Virus record (IMG/VR): IMGVR_UViG_3300022868_000112 | Location: 1-21,893 of that record | Strand: one strand, 5' to 3' | Length of the DNA stretch: 21,893 nucleotides | Source of the DNA: a virus | Shown: piece after piece, positions 1,145 through 20,349 of the stretch | Layout of the letters: each line of letters opens with the position of its first letter | Position numbering within the stretch: the first letter of the stretch is position 1 | Position numbers and translations under genes: made by a program | The notes under the pieces: model-generated | What the model saw: only the letters and a program-made list of their open reading frames with translations | What the model was told of the DNA's origin: nothing | The model's database searches: none

Positions 1145-1214
1145 AATTGTAGTGTGTGTTATCTATAATAATACCCTATTAAAAATATAAATCTATTCCA
1201 ACCTGTTGGTTACT
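1145..1214 (-). promoter_or_regulatory. Leader/promoter region of the replication-like gene
   Basis: On the minus strand this interval starts with a divergent copy (1214-1200) of the AGTTACCAACAGTT element seen next to two other early promoters, followed by an AT-rich stretch and GGGTATTATTATAGATA, which resembles the GGGTATGATAAGATA of the promoter at 7954-7925. A plausible pairing is -35 TTTATA (1191-1186) and -10 TATAGA (1167-1162) with an 18-bp spacer, which is weak. The last bases before the ATG contain CACACTACAA (complement at 1147-1156), identical to the complement of the loop of the putative RNA2. No Shine-Dalgarno sequence is present. Confidence 0.45.
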
Positions 1215-4331: not shown

Positions 4332-4378
4332 AATATAAAAATATTATTGATTGATAATCTCCTCGACCCTTTGACCTT
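4332..4378 (-). promoter_or_regulatory. bet leader with shared GGAGATTATYAAT motif
   Basis: On the minus strand this short gap contains, in order, GGTCG, AGGAGA, TTATCAATCAAT, then an AT tract and the ATG of bet. TTATCAATCAAT (complement at 4346-4357) is exactly complementary to part of the putative RNA1 (8706-8717), and the preceding GGTCG (4364-4368) is complementary to the adjacent 8701-8705, leaving AGGAGA as a bulge. The purine-rich AGGAGA lies about 27 nt before the ATG, too far to be a Shine-Dalgarno. A regulatory target site is my inference; the shared sequence is directly visible. Confidence 0.5.
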
Positions 4379-7493: not shown

Positions 7494-7631
7494 TTGATAA
7501 CTGAGTTGTGGGTGCGAAGCATTATGTAGTTGTCTTCGCAGGGCTATTATTTGACGATGTTAATTAGAGGCATGAAAATGAACCTCTAGTGGCACCGCTA
7601 CATTACCCACTTCCCACAACTCAGTTATCAA
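7494..7631 (-). ncRNA. Structured RNA element in ssb 5' region with complementary loops
   Basis: A perfect 19-bp inverted repeat (7494-7512 with 7613-7631) encloses three hairpins: 7513-7519/7534-7540 (TGCGAAG/CTTCGCA, 14-nt loop), 7565-7570/7583-7588 (TAGAGG/CCTCTA with an inner 3-bp stem) and 7589-7592/7607-7610 (GTGG/CCAC, 14-nt loop). The two 14-nt loops contain ATGTAG (7524-7529) and CTACAT (7598-7603), so they could form a 6-bp kissing interaction. The hairpins pack against the closing stem with almost no linkers except one of 24 nt. It fills the gap between the 78-residue gene and ssb. Could be a cis-regulator of ssb, a processed RNA, or less likely an origin or a MITE. I do not recognise a known RNA class. 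Strand is inferred from the genes. Confidence 0.65.
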
Positions 7632-7641
7632 TGATCTAGAT

Positions 7642-7878
7642 TTATAATTCCATCTTCTTCTCGTACTTCGATGTGTCGCATTCCGGGTAGTGGCCGTTCG
7701 AGTTATAAAACTGTGTAGGTGTCACTCCGTACTCTGCTTCTACACAAATTTCGTAGACTTCTGCCCATGCCATTAATTCTACATCTCGTTTTTCAAAAAA
7801 TAATAGGATGCCTGCGATTAATGTAATTGCTAATACTATATAGAATATTGCAATTAAATATGGAGTTGTTTTTTTCAT
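7642..7878 (-). CDS. Small membrane protein, first gene of early operon
   Basis: 78 residues. Residues 6-28 form one transmembrane helix (LIAIFYIVLAITLIAGILLFF), followed by a 50-residue soluble part with two Cys residues (ICVEA and PECDT) that could make a disulfide outside the cell. Orientation by charge: Lys residues at the N-terminus inside, C-terminal domain outside. Its leader (7879-7920) follows a good promoter and carries motifs shared with bet. As the first gene of the early transcript, it might be a membrane-acting takeover or exclusion protein; this is inference only. Confidence 0.7.
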   Translation of the reverse strand: MKKTTPYLIAIFYIVLAITLIAGILLFFEKRDVELMAWAEVYEICVEAEYGVTPTQFYNSNGHYPECDTSKYEKKMEL

Positions 7879-7973
7879 GTCTTATTTTTTTTGATTAATA
7901 ATCTCCGACCTTTTTAAGTTATTTATATCTTATCATACCCTTGTTTTAAGTCAAATCAAAACTGTTGGTAACT
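7879..7973 (-). promoter_or_regulatory. Early promoter, 14-bp upstream element and leader
   Basis: Minus-strand order: AGTTACCAACAGTT (7973-7960), 5 bp, -35 TTGACT (7954-7949), 16-bp spacer ending in TGA, -10 TAAGAT (7932-7927, extended -10 type), predicted transcript start near 7920. The 42-nt leader contains AAAAGGTCG (7914-7906), GAGA, then TTATTAATCAA (7901-7891). These two blocks pair with the putative RNA1 as 9 bp plus 11 bp including one G-U, with GAGA bulged. The start context (GACATGAA) also matches the loop of an RNA1 hairpin. Hexamers and element are visible; activity is inferred. Confidence 0.65.
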
Positions 7974-7982
7974 TTTTGAGAG

Positions 7983-8109
7983 TGGATTTTCTATTCTATG
8001 TTGTATTTTCCTGTTGTAGTCTATGTATAGAAGATATGTCCATATCGCACAAACGGAATGCTTTAACATCTCATATCTAAATGTTCCAACATCACATATA
8101 GAAAATCCA
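7983..8109. repeat. 12-bp inverted repeat enclosing about 100 bp, possible structured element
   Basis: TGGATTTTCTAT (7983-7994) and ATAGAAAATCCA (8098-8109) are perfect reverse complements, and ATGT (7998-8001) can pair with ACAT (8094-8097) after a 3-nt bulge. The interior holds GATATG-TC-CATATC, a tight 6-bp dyad (about 8032-8045), and two direct copies of a motif like AACATCxCATAT near 8065-8100. It lies between the GIY-YIG gene stop and the early promoter. It may be a terminator region, an operator cluster or a second structured RNA. No gene is seen here. Confidence 0.45.
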
Positions 8110-8118
8110 ATAAAAAAA

Positions 8119-8529
8119 TTATATTAAAATCTCAAATACATTTTCTTTGTAATATTCATATTTTCCAATTTGAATTGTATCTTTATATTCTTTTATTTTT
8201 TTTAGTATTTGTCCTCTCTTGTATCCAAGTTCTTTTCCTTTATTGATTAATTCTGATTGCCCTATGTATCCAATGTTATTCGGATTTGTTAGACACTTAT
8301 TATATTTTGGTTTTTCTTTTACTATTAATTCAGACTCCAAAATCTCAGCTTCTTCTAAACTTTCACATTCAATAAATGATATCTTTTCGAACTCTTTGTT
8401 ATAGACATGTGCTGATATTCTTGTGAATAATTTTTCTTTACTTACACCTACATAAACAACGACATTATCAATGTCTTTTAATAAATAAACACATGGTTTT
8501 TTTGGGGTTTGTATTTCAATTTCTTTCAT
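8119..8529 (-). CDS. GIY-YIG-fold endonuclease domain protein
   Basis: 136 residues. The N-terminal 80 residues match the GIY-YIG fold: CVYLLKD (the GIY strand, with VYL in place of IYx), then VVVYVGVSKE (the YIG strand), FTRISAH (the conserved Arg/His helix), KISFIECESLEEAEILESELI with the catalytic-type Glu, and KPKYNK. These domains occur in UvrC-like nucleases and free-standing phage homing endonucleases. The C-terminal 50 residues are basic and may bind DNA. The gene has its own strong promoter with a leaderless start, and lies across a non-coding island from an HNH endonuclease. Homing-type mobility is the most likely reading. Confidence 0.75.
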   Translation of the reverse strand: MKEIEIQTPKKPCVYLLKDIDNVVVYVGVSKEKLFTRISAHVYNKEFEKISFIECESLEEAEILESELIVKEKPKYNKCLTNPNNIGYIGQSELINKGKELGYKRGQILKKIKEYKDTIQIGKYEYYKENVFEILI

Positions 8530-8535
8530 ATTTTT

Positions 8536-8563
8536 ATTATACCGCCATCCATTTTTTTGTCTA
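8536..8563 (-). promoter_or_regulatory. Leaderless-type promoter for the GIY-YIG gene
   Basis: -35 TAGACA (8563-8558), 16-bp spacer, -10 TATAAT (8541-8536), then AAAAAT and the ATG at 8529, so the predicted transcription start coincides with the start codon. It starts directly after the terminator-like hairpin at 8570-8592, so the nuclease gene appears insulated from upstream transcription. Confidence 0.75.
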
Positions 8564-8592
8564 TAACAAAACCGCCTATGATCTAGGCGGTT
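8564..8592 (-). terminator. Intrinsic terminator (end of putative RNA2)
   Basis: AACCGCCTA (8570-8578 on plus) pairs perfectly with TAGGCGGTT (8584-8592): a 9-bp GC-rich stem with a 5-nt loop. On the minus strand the stem is followed by TTTTGTT. The plus side is A-rich, also giving a fair U-poor tail there, so minus-strand use is preferred. Confidence 0.75.
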
Positions 8593-8638
8593 CTGTAAAA
8601 GAGATCACACTACAACAAATCTCTGACCTTGCGGTCGC
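8564..8638 (-). ncRNA. Putative small RNA 2 (about 75 nt), loop complementary to phage leaders
   Basis: On the minus strand a perfect extended -10 is followed by about 75 nt that fold into three hairpins: GACC-GCAA-GGTC (8636-8625; a GNRA tetraloop, which supports this orientation), AGAGAT/ATCTCT (8624-8619 and 8605-8600) with a 13-nt loop TTGTTGTAGTGTG, and a 9-bp terminator hairpin (8592-8570) with TTTTGTT. The loop and its flank are complementary to the leader just upstream of the tail-chaperone ATG: 11 bp, one bulged A, 8 bp. Shorter matches (9-10 bases) occur before the starts at 1144, 10461 and 17141. I infer a trans-acting antisense RNA. Alternative: an inverted remnant of a duplicated leader. 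Confidence 0.55.
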
Positions 8639-8643
8639 TCTTA

Positions 8644-8652
8644 ATTATAGCA
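8644..8652 (-). promoter_or_regulatory. Extended -10 promoter of putative RNA2
   Basis: TGC followed by perfect TATAAT, an extended -10 element. No good -35 hexamer lies 16-18 bp upstream; that stretch is the T-rich tail of the upstream terminator. Predicted start near 8638, right before the first hairpin. Confidence 0.6.
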
Positions 8653-8656
8653 TAAC

Positions 8657-8689
8657 AAAACAAAAACCACCCCGATAGATAAAGGGTGG
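8657..8689 (-). terminator. Intrinsic terminator (end of putative RNA1)
   Basis: On the minus strand CCACCC (8689-8684), an 11-nt loop, GGGTGG (8672-8667), then TTTTTGTTTTG. A 6-bp stem with five GC pairs and a long T tract is a standard rho-independent terminator. Confidence 0.8.
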
Positions 8690-8770
8690 AATTTGCAAAA
8701 GGTCGTTATCAATCAATTGGTGGCGACATGAAGAAACCACCTAGAGATAACTGTGCATTAGATAATACAC
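8657..8770 (-). ncRNA. Putative small RNA 1 (about 110 nt), complementary to early-gene leaders
   Basis: Bounded by an extended -10 promoter (8785-8777) and a canonical terminator (8689-8657). Internal fold: outer stem GTTATC/GATAAC (8751-8746 and 8710-8705) around inner stem GGTGG/CCACC (8741-8737 and 8723-8719) with loop TTTCTTCATGTCG. Bases 8717-8701 are complementary to the bet leader (12 bp plus 5 bp) and the 7878 leader (11 bp plus 9 bp). The loop contains the complement of GACATGAA, the start-codon region of the genes at 7878, 7474 (ssb) and 4972. GGTGG, CCACC, CCACCC and GGGTGG can also pair in a different order, so a transcription attenuator is an alternative. Function is inferred. 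Confidence 0.5.
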
Positions 8771-8776
8771 GATTTT

Positions 8777-8790: not shown

Positions 8791-9216
8791 TTATTTTCCT
8801 GTCTTTCTTAAAAATCTATTTGTTTTTTTGGCATGGCAATTTGGGCATATTGTTTGTAGATTTTTTAATTCGTCTTTTCCACCAGTTGATTTTTCTTTTA
8901 TGTGATCAACCTGCATTATTTCCTTATCTCTAAAACCACATTTTTGGCAGGTCCAATTATCTCTTTTCAATATTTCTCTCCTTAAAAAAGTTAATTCACC
9001 ACCTTTCCAAAATTGGTTATCTTTTCCTTTTTTGCAAAAATGTTTTTTATAGTACTCCTTAAAACATTTACGGCCACAATACTTTTTTGGATAGTTTCTT
9101 TTTGATTCCCATGGTGCAATCCAAACTTCTATTTTACAATTCTTGCATTTAATAAAATGGCCACGCTTTACAGCCTGACCTATTTTATCTTTATGTTCTT
9201 GAGTCATTTTATACAT
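8791..9216 (-). CDS. HNH homing-type endonuclease
   Basis: 141 residues. N-terminal MTQEHKDKIGQAVKRG resembles a NUMOD-type DNA-binding helix of free-standing homing endonucleases. Then a zinc finger, CKNCKIEVW...YCGRKC, a linker (QFWKGGEL), and a full HNH domain: LRREILKRDNWTCQKCG, VDHIKEKSTGGKDELKNLQTICPNCHAKKT (DH, N and H catalytic residues plus two Cys pairs). It has its own canonical promoter inside the preceding gene and a start 6 nt after TATAAT, so it behaves as an autonomous insert. It sits next to the lysis genes, a common homing-endonuclease site. Confidence 0.88.
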   Translation of the reverse strand: MYKMTQEHKDKIGQAVKRGHFIKCKNCKIEVWIAPWESKRNYPKKYCGRKCFKEYYKKHFCKKGKDNQFWKGGELTFLRREILKRDNWTCQKCGFRDKEIMQVDHIKEKSTGGKDELKNLQTICPNCHAKKTNRFLRKTGK

Positions 9217-10461: not shown

Positions 10462-10526
10462 AATATTAGTGTGATTATATTAATAATTTGATTTTAAATA
10501 AGGGAGTTCTTTTTATTCTGCTCCCT
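10462..10526 (-). promoter_or_regulatory. Hairpin and promoter-like leader before the lysin gene
   Basis: AGGGAG/CTCCCT (10501-10506 and 10521-10526) form a 6-bp hairpin followed on the minus strand by a T/A-rich tail: a weak terminator for the upstream cassette. Next comes TATAAT (10479-10474), 12 nt before the ATG, with CACACTA in between, identical to the motif upstream of the tail-chaperone start and complementary to the putative RNA2. The -35 is poor (TTATTT at 16 bp). Confidence 0.45.
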
Positions 10527-10562
10527 AAAAGAATATCATTAAATAGATTGAATGCAACAGTC

Positions 10563-15408: not shown

Positions 15409-15912
15409 TTTTTTGTGAGTCTATGCGATACATTTCTTGGATTAAATCTATGAAAGGTTGTGGCGATTCCATGTACTCGTAATATGTCCATCCGAAGTCT
15501 TTGCAAATCTGAACCATCATCATGTTCTCATCCAGTTGATTCTTTGTCCCATACTTTATTAAAGATCCGATGTATCGCCTTTGTCTTTTTTTGGGCTTGT
15601 AATTGTATTTATGTATTCAACTACTTCATCGTAATCGTCGGACGGCAAGTCTGAAACTGCTTCGAGCACTTTCTCTTTGCTTCCATTAACTGACACGATC
15701 AATGCTTCGATTGAGATGTCCTCGGCTTTACTAATAACCCCACCTTTAATTCCTGTTAGTGGGACATTGCCTTTTTTGAAATCGTTTACATTTACATCAG
15801 CTTCTCCAATATAACAGTCACGAATATTTCGCATTTCTCTCCCTGTTATATAAGCATTGGCTACGATTTTAAACCCTCCCTTTGTCTCAAAATCTTTTGT
15901 TTCTCTATTCAT
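15371..15912 (-). CDS. Tail assembly chaperone, -1 frameshift (G-T type) product
   Basis: If ribosomes slip at 15595-15586, residues 1-109 of the short chaperone are joined to 71 further residues, ending at a TGA at 15373-15371: about 180 residues. The extension reads in part GTKNQLDENMMMVQICKDFG, then WTYYEYMESPQPFIDLIQEM. A 'W.Y.ey...P..f' segment is typical of downstream T-type chaperones. The frame is open from the slip site to beyond the tape measure start and has no stop, although it has no own good start. Tail chaperones before the tape measure gene use such frameshifts in most long-tailed phages. This explains the apparent 150-base gap. Confidence 0.85.
15559..15912 (-). CDS. Tail assembly chaperone, short (G-type) product
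   Basis: 117 residues. Rich in beta/helix with TKGGFKIVANAYITGREMRN, then a charged helical tail (SDDYDEVVEYINTI) and a Lys/Asp end. It sits directly upstream of the tape measure gene and downstream of the tail tube, the fixed place of the G chaperone that coats the tape measure during tail assembly. Its leader has no Shine-Dalgarno but carries GATCACACTAACAACAAAT, the best target of the putative RNA2. The start at 15912 is the only suitable ATG. Confidence 0.82.
   Translation of the reverse strand: MNRETKDFETKGGFKIVANAYITGREMRNIRDCYIGEADVNVNDFKKGNVPLTGIKGGVISKAEDISIEALIVSVNGSKEKVLEAVSDLPSDDYDEVVEYINTITSPKKDKGDTSDL
15586..15595 (-). promoter_or_regulatory. Slippery site for programmed -1 frameshift
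   Basis: In the chaperone frame the codons AGC-CCA-AAA-AAA contain two overlapping heptamers of the X XXY YYZ form: C CCA AAA (15595-15589) and A AAA AAA (15592-15586). Both place P- and A-site tRNAs in perfect register for re-pairing at -1, and the -1 frame stays open for 71 codons. Confidence 0.85.
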
Positions 15913-15950
15913 AATAATTTGTTGTTAGTGTGATCTTTTAAGATCAGTTA
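15913..15950 (-). promoter_or_regulatory. Leader of the tail chaperone gene with hairpin and RNA2-complementary block
   Basis: Minus strand: hairpin arms TGATCTT/AAGATCA (15946-15931), then CACACTAACAACAAAT and TTATT before the ATG. AGATCACACTA and CAACAAAT match the complement of RNA2 (8602-8620), differing only by one extra A. Pairing would use part of the hairpin and reach to within 4 nt of the ATG. Immediately upstream, the end of the tail tube gene supplies GGAGATTATTAAT, also found in the bet and 7878 leaders. Confidence 0.5.
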
Positions 15951-17145: not shown

Positions 17146-17337
17146 TTATTTGTTGTTATCGTTGGCTTTTAAAGTTTCGACTTCTTTATTTTCCCCTGTG
17201 TTTTCAGGAGTCTTCGCCACTATTAATTCAAAATTTGGATTGTTGATTTCATCCTTTGTTTTTACCGTTTCCCCTGCTTTCACAAGTCCGATTTCATTAA
17301 GGTATAAATCTTTTTTTGTTATATTTTTGTAATTCAT
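17146..17337 (-). CDS. Small protein next to tail tube
   Basis: 63 residues: a short beta domain (YKNITKKDLYLNEIGLVKAGETV) and an acidic, disordered tail. The first part follows the 'N.tkkdl...GlvkPGe.v' pattern seen in small phage proteins encoded beside tail or head-completion genes. The function is unknown to me. The start lies exactly 6 nt after a perfect TATAAT that is embedded after the tail terminator stop; the sequence TATAATAAATATATG is identical to that before the connector gene at 19136. Confidence 0.7.
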   Translation of the reverse strand: MNYKNITKKDLYLNEIGLVKAGETVKTKDEINNPNFELIVAKTPENTGENKEVETLKANDNNK

Positions 17338-19155: not shown

Positions 19156-20349
19156 TTAATAAAATGGTTTATACCCCTGTACCCCATAAGTATAAGGGAA
19201 TGATCTAACTTCGTATTGAAGTGATTTTGTTATTGCTATTCCAGTTATGATTTCATACTCTAATGATTTAGTTATTCCAGTCGGAGACAAAATATCATAC
19301 ACCAATCCTTTCTGAATTGTGCTTTCTGTTAAAATCTCATAGGCTAATGACTTTTGAATTTTAACTGGTTTTATTATTGTATATTTATCTGATTTTGTTA
19401 TTGCACTATCGGTTAAGATTTCGTATCTCAAACCTTTCGTGATAGAACTTGATGTTAAAATTTCGTATACCAAACTTTTGTTTATTCCAATACTTTTAAT
19501 CACTGTATATTTATCTGTCTTTGTGATTGCTGTGTCTGTTAAGATTTCATATTGGAGAGTCTTTTGGATATTAGTTGGAATCATTATTTGATATTCCAAT
19601 CCTTTCTCAACTTTAATTGGCATTGTAGACAAATAATAACTTAATGTTTTTTGAATTAATCCTGATGTCAGAACTGCATAATCCAAACCTTTTGTTTTTG
19701 TATCTTGATTAAAAATGTAGTATGCCAATGATTTCTCAATTGCTGACGGAGTGCTTGTTACAGTATACTTCAGAGATTTTTGAATTGCTGTGCTAGACAC
19801 TATTTCGTAGTTCATTTCTTTCTCTATTTTTGAACTAGTTAAAATTGTATATTGAATAGATTTTTGAACTATCTGTTCTGACTTCACAGAATAAATTAAA
19901 CCTTTTTCTATTACTGTTTCAATTACAATTCTATATTCCAAATCCTTTGTTATTTTTGAAGGAGTTTGTTTGATTGTATATTTTAAAGACTTCTGAATTA
20001 ATGCCTGACTTTCAACTTCATATTGAAGTGATTTTTCTATTTTTATATTTGTTAAAACTTGATACTCTAATCCTTTTTGAATGTTTGTATCTGTGATCAC
20101 AGAATAAATTAAACCTTTTTCTATTGCTGATGGTGTTTGTTTAACTGTATATTTTAAACTCTTTTGAATTGCTGTCCCACTCAATAATGTATATTTCAGA
20201 CTTTTAGTTTTTGCTGATGGTGTTTGAACTATGACATATTTAAGACTTTTTTGGATAACCTCATACGACAAATTTTCAAGTAAAATAAATTCACTTGTTT
20301 CTTTTAGAAGTCTATCGCCGTCCTCTTTGAGTAATTTATAAAACGTCAT
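19156..20349 (-). CDS. Tandem-repeat beta protein (about 25 repeats of 14-15 residues)
   Basis: 397 residues. After an N-terminal KLLKEDGDRLLKETSEFILLE segment, the entire protein is about 25 units of pattern [IV]xK[SGT]LxYx[IV] plus a 5-6 residue turn. Ile, Leu, Tyr and Val/Ile alternate as in a beta-strand per unit, so the protein likely makes a beta-solenoid or fibre. PSA and TDTA turns recur. A Tyr/Gly-rich tail (GVQGYKPFY) ends it. The N-terminal DG/LLLE motif resembles tail and head fibre proteins of uncultured phages. It lies between the LamG gene and the connector, so it may decorate the capsid. Function unknown. Confidence 0.75.
   Translation of the reverse strand: MTFYKLLKEDGDRLLKETSEFILLENLSYEVIQKSLKYVIVQTPSAKTKSLKYTLLSGTAIQKSLKYTVKQTPSAIEKGLIYSVITDTNIQKGLEYQVLTNIKIEKSLQYEVESQALIQKSLKYTIKQTPSKITKDLEYRIVIETVIEKGLIYSVKSEQIVQKSIQYTILTSSKIEKEMNYEIVSSTAIQKSLKYTVTSTPSAIEKSLAYYIFNQDTKTKGLDYAVLTSGLIQKTLSYYLSTMPIKVEKGLEYQIMIPTNIQKTLQYEILTDTAITKTDKYTVIKSIGINKSLVYEILTSSSITKGLRYEILTDSAITKSDKYTIIKPVKIQKSLAYEILTESTIQKGLVYDILSPTGITKSLEYEIITGIAITKSLQYEVRSFPYTYGVQGYKPFY

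Follow-up and report, generated by a model that had tools for sequence, protein, structure and literature searches.

For the most part, known phage antisense RNAs either control a single gene of immunity or have host RNAs as their targets, and one of them, sar, is encoded opposite or beside the region that it targets. The phage small RNAs treated in one review include c4, sar, OOP, 24B_1, VpdS and PreS (PMC12197685). Closest in working, by analogy, to the two RNAs proposed here (RNA1 and RNA2) would be c4 of P1 and P7, as that review describes it: a structured phage-encoded RNA, about 77 nt long, with segments in its loops complementary to the region where ribosomes bind a phage mRNA, the translation of which is blocked (PMC12197685). 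It differs in having ant mRNA as its only target and a role in immunity, whereas here there are two RNAs with different sets of genes and no Rfam family. The sar RNA of P22, 68-69 nt in length, likewise comes from the phage, and it pairs around the start of ant, also a phage mRNA (PMC12197685). Unlike sar, RNA1 and RNA2 lie mostly kilobases from their putative targets and match them imperfectly, as trans-acting sRNAs do.

Two others described in the review, 24B_1 of Phi24B and VpdS of VP882, are trans-acting phage RNAs reported to affect both phage and host mRNAs (PMC12197685); compared by description only, they differ in that 24B_1 is a processed RNA of 20 nt and that both involve Hfq. PAK_P4as15 is antisense to an endolysin gene and has been proposed to delay lysis by blocking translation (PMC12197685), as RNA2 might do with the lysin of this phage, but it is a cis-antisense RNA of about 550 nt, while the RNA2 match is a weak one of 9 bp. 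No adjacent pair of RNAs that differ in their phage targets is described in the part of the review considered here, a reading that does not amount to a full survey of the literature (PMC12197685). I suggest that RNA1 and RNA2 may work as c4-type RNAs do, and claim for them membership of no family.

Two predicted small RNA genes in tandem

The window is the whole stretch of DNA analyzed, a linear viral record of 21,893 bases whose predicted genes lie on the minus strand. Tail genes occupy the high-coordinate end (tail tube PF18906, tape measure PF20155, Sipho_tail PF05709). After them come a papain/PG-binding lysin, HNH and GIY-YIG genes, and then SSB, an SNF2-type helicase, RecT and a replication-O-like gene, the SSB and helicase being identified from their own sequence. 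About 260 non-coding bases separate the HNH gene (ending at 8791) from the GIY-YIG gene (starting at 8529). Since homing-type endonuclease genes flank the locus, a group I intron was considered; the absence of an Rfam match and of any visible split gene rules against it.

Read on the minus strand, the gap appears to hold two sRNA genes, in which the layout of promoter, hairpins and terminator is found twice in tandem (Table 1). Both have the anatomy of an independent transcription unit, an extended -10 and a terminator hairpin, so far as this can be judged from the DNA alone, with a poor -35 in the case of RNA2. The promoter of RNA1 reads AAGACA-17-TGCTATAAT and its terminator CCACCC..GGGGTGGTTTTT. 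The -10 of RNA2 is one of three occurrences of TGNTATAAT on the minus strand, and its predicted start is near 8641. An automated terminator scan did not list the RNA2 terminator, because its T-run is interrupted. Both RNAs fold more stably than their shuffled counterparts (z-scores of -4.1 for RNA1 and -5.7 for RNA2, the latter equalled by 0 of 200 shuffles). Each has a partly single-stranded seed, the RNA2 loop and the RNA1 linker being unpaired in the MFE structure, and opening their pairing sites costs 2.2-5.9 kcal/mol. Neither matches any Rfam family at the gathering score, phage antisense RNA families included; the only hits were noise (E 2.7-4.2).

Table 1. Predicted features of the sRNA locus and its candidate targets
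Feature	Positions	Strand	Remarks
RNA1, second predicted sRNA gene	8662..8771	minus	about 110 nt, directly upstream of RNA2; promoter, terminator, fold
RNA1 antisense segment AUUGAUUGAUAACGACCUUUUG	8696..8717	minus	22 nt; complementary to two early leaders
RNA2 extended -10 TGCTATAAT	8644..8652	minus	no good -35
RNA2, predicted sRNA gene	8563..8641	minus	transcript of 76-79 nt; extended -10 upstream, three hairpins, terminator
RNA2 hairpin 1, GACC-GCAA-GGTC (GNRA)	8625..8636	minus	from the fold
RNA2 hairpin 2	8600..8624	minus	loop and inner arms (8602-8620) form the antisense segment
RNA2 intrinsic terminator AACCGCCTA-GATCA-TAGGCGGTT, then TTGTTAT	8570..8592	minus	strong hairpin
Putative RNA1 target, recT leader	4346..4373	minus	12+10 bp, mRNA AGGAGA looped out; -15 to -42
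Putative RNA1 target, leader of gene 7642-7878	7891..7914	minus	11+9 bp, GAGA looped out; -13 to -36
Putative RNA2 target, tail chaperone leader	15917..15936	minus	-5 to -24 from ATG; identical in contigs L002-L005
Putative second RNA2 target, leader of rep-like gene 440-1144	1147..1156	minus	-3 to -12; 10 bp perfect, -10.1 kcal/mol
Possible weak RNA2 target, lysin leader	10467..10475	minus	9 bp, -5.2 kcal/mol; overlaps TATAAT
RNA2 match before tail tube gene, probably not a working target	17148..17156	minus	9 bp, -2.6 kcal/mol
Tail assembly chaperone gene (gpG-like)	15559..15912	minus	between tail tube and tape measure; open -1 frame

Complementarity to the leaders of phage genes

The strongest match of RNA2 is to the leader of the tail chaperone gene. 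A preliminary description of this DNA had claimed that the RNA2 loop is antisense to that leader over 11+8 bases with one bulge, to an extent beyond chance. The match is there: 11 bases at 15926-15936 and 8-9 at 15917-15924/25, with one unpaired target A. By a strict antisense score this leader comes first among 38, with 37 against 24 for the next, and it is the best site for RNA2 outside RNA2 itself in the whole window, on both strands. (An earlier, permissive score was discarded because it favored long gapped alignments.) A score of 37 was attained by 1 of 5,000 dinucleotide shuffles of RNA2 (0.02%) and by 0.33% of random minus-strand segments, and it was matched in 3 of 2,000 sets of shuffled leaders. 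Interaction energies against the leaders, which the same description had suggested computing, also place the chaperone first of the 38 (0.4% of shuffles did as well), and the net energy with accessibility taken into account is -15.2 kcal/mol. The excess over chance thus holds at about 1e-3 to 1e-4, which is not astronomical. That the chaperone leader has an antisense sRNA gene, with pairing placed over the ribosome site, is well supported as a prediction.

The chaperone gene has no match of its own in Pfam or PHROG. Its identity is taken from its position between the tail tube and tape measure genes and from its open -1 frame, which runs from a slippery CCAAAAAAAG near 15594 to 15371. This is the usual gpG/gpGT arrangement, as in lambda, and CCAAAAAAAG with the open -1 frame is likely a programmed frameshift producing a gpGT-like tail chaperone. 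A GATCTT..AAGATC palindrome (15930-15945, minus strand) stands at the 5' side of the leader.

Further matches of RNA2 had been claimed before the rep, lysin and tail tube genes. All are found where they were placed, but energetically only that before rep convinces: the chaperone would be a strong target, rep a plausible one, the lysin doubtful and the tail tube unlikely, the last two being judged weak because their net energies are so small. Moreover, the lysin match overlaps a TATAAT, and if this is a promoter the match would lie outside the mRNA. A second promoter-like sequence, TTGCAT-16-TATTCT (read by eye), is found upstream of the lysin near 10,530. Considered together, five of the eight minus-strand matches to RNA2 of at least 9 bases fall in the 30 nt that precede a start codon (four different genes), a zone that makes up 5.2% of the sequence; the plus strand has no match of that length apart from the locus itself. 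Four leaders with such a match compare with a mean of 0.26 for shuffles. None of 2,000 shuffles of the RNA2 19-mer matched four leaders, and 0.2-0.6% of the 19-mers in the genome did so.

RNA1 was absent from the preliminary description, and its complementarity to early leaders is new here. The leaders of recT and of gene 7642-7878, the latter with a promoter of its own (TTGACT-16-TAAGAT at 7927-7954), are the two best sites for RNA1 outside itself in the window, both strands included. Two such scores jointly were found in none of 5,000 shuffles of RNA1, and none of 2,000 sets of shuffled leaders gave them either. Comparison of the two targets shows an indel that coincides with the looped-out segment and a C/T substitution that leaves a G-U pair intact, as might be expected if pairing is conserved, which with two targets only is no more than suggestive. 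The full dimer energies of RNA1 are ordinary, 13-29% of shuffles doing as well for its first three leaders, and they rank the chaperone leader first, not recT or 7642-7878. The case for RNA1 rests therefore on the strict antisense score, and confidence in it is lowered. The non-coding DNA of the window and of about 90 viral loci was scanned without bias for TGNTATAAT plus a terminator, which gave three candidates: RNA1, RNA2 and one other, with best leader scores of 37, 37 and 21.

Proposed repression in trans and its alternatives

I propose that RNA1 and RNA2 are phage-encoded sRNAs, independently transcribed and ended by terminators, that pair in trans with the leaders of the phage's own mRNAs and repress them. 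I put the probability of this at about two in three. The genes have the anatomy of sRNA genes, and their complementarity to the leaders of separate genes is imperfect and beyond chance, as that of trans-acting sRNAs is. That they are transcribed, pair within the cell, repress rather than activate, and do so at particular times are further steps that the sequence makes plausible. RNA2 would display its seed in the loop of hairpin 2, and pairing with the chaperone and rep mRNAs would block ribosome binding to each. Since the chaperone leader is covered from -5 to -24 and has no Shine-Dalgarno sequence, repression is the likeliest effect. The 22-nt segment of RNA1, half of it single-stranded, would pair with its two leaders and likely repress by occlusion or by cleavage of the duplex, an outcome less certain than the effect of RNA2.

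A different view is that both RNAs are real but truly act on RNAs or proteins of the host, or in packaging or some other phage process, the matches to leaders being incidental. Many characterized phage sRNAs do act on host RNAs, as PreS does on dnaN and DicF on ftsZ (PMC12197685), and the weaker sites of RNA2 have little energy. Yet the best sites of both RNAs in the window, themselves excepted, are phage leaders, and shuffles seldom equal these, which makes this view unlikely, if the best of the rivals. Less likely still is that a regulatory protein of the phage recognizes the shared sequences as DNA or RNA sites, with ATCACACTA and GGTCG..TTATYAATCAA boxes near start codons and copies inside RNA1 and RNA2. 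Such boxes are indeed common to the leaders of different genes, even among the leaders alone, and the GATC palindrome of the chaperone leader is preserved in a related contig despite an indel. On the other hand, the box is antisense in both RNAs and lies within a predicted transcribed unit that ends in a terminator, and the half-sites are contiguous in RNA1 but 4 or 6 nt apart in its targets, which fits bulged pairing better than a fixed footprint. Least probable of all is that structured non-coding DNA and AT-rich leaders are complementary by chance: random minus-strand segments do reach the score of RNA2 in 0.3-0.7% of draws and that of RNA1 in 1.0-1.5%, and the dimer energies of RNA1 are those of its shuffles, but two adjacent sRNA-like genes both find their best matches in the window at leaders, one of them twice, and no shuffle of RNA1 does so jointly.

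Repression in trans by the two RNAs might be extended, tentatively, to a post-transcriptional switch. A 250-bp locus between the late and early modules would produce RNA1, which silences early recombination genes, and RNA2, which silences the chaperone, rep and perhaps the lysin. I hold this extension to be somewhat improbable as it stands. The preliminary description had RNA2 holding back late genes, on the grounds that most of its targets are late. Its antisense match to the chaperone leader stands, and repression and timing would follow from it only by inference; a mostly late set of targets does not stand, the second-best being a replication gene and the other two late matches energetically weak. 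The chaperone leader is within the run of tail genes, 38 nt past the tail tube stop, so the effect of RNA2 may be to set the dose of chaperone and not to throw a global late switch.

If the two-RNA switch is real, the phage would rely on multi-target antisense RNAs, and not on proteins alone, to tune the order of infection. A pair of phage sRNAs, one with early targets and the other with structural or replication targets, would be a simple and portable means to time or balance phage expression, including the dosing of the tail chaperone. Small phages whose leaders have a weak Shine-Dalgarno sequence, or none, would then seem able to turn to RNA pairing for these ends.

Relatives and neighboring elements

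Four related contigs (L002-L005) carry the chaperone gene, and the RNA2 target in its leader is identical in all four; they end short of the sRNA locus. L005 is about 78% identical over 5 kb and has an indel beside the target, with the GATC palindrome preserved. Runs of identity up to 92 nt are found elsewhere in the same alignment, so conservation of the leader is not exceptional and is weak evidence. No other copy of the sRNA locus was found in the collections viral_contigs, genome_contigs and phages. Pattern searches with the exact loop and with a gapped loop and leader returned, apart from unrelated matches, only the chaperone leaders of the four related contigs, and no related phage came up with a pattern built on the RNA1 segment and its targets. 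The SNF2 helicase, lysin and rep proteins as queries, and the tape-measure alignment, gave no relatives; a RecT search gave distant relatives, in which no helicase relative turned up.

Several other elements lie on the minus strand of the window. A structured non-coding stretch at 7960-8125 (z-score -3.1) contains ACTACAACA (8012-8020), which matches the RNA2 loop over 9 bases and may be a sponge or chance. At 7494-7631, between gene 7642-7878 and SSB, a perfect inverted repeat of 19 bp closes a multibranched structure of 138 nt with a fold z-score of -8.3. The structure matches nothing in Rfam and may be a third structured RNA; an upstream start codon of the SSB ORF sits inside it. The start codons at 8529, 9216, 17337 and 19136 are preceded at about 6-7 nt by TATAAT, which suggests leaderless mRNAs. 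Finally, 19156-20349 encodes a repetitive protein built from some 20 degenerate copies of a repeat like IQKSLKYTV.. (read by eye).
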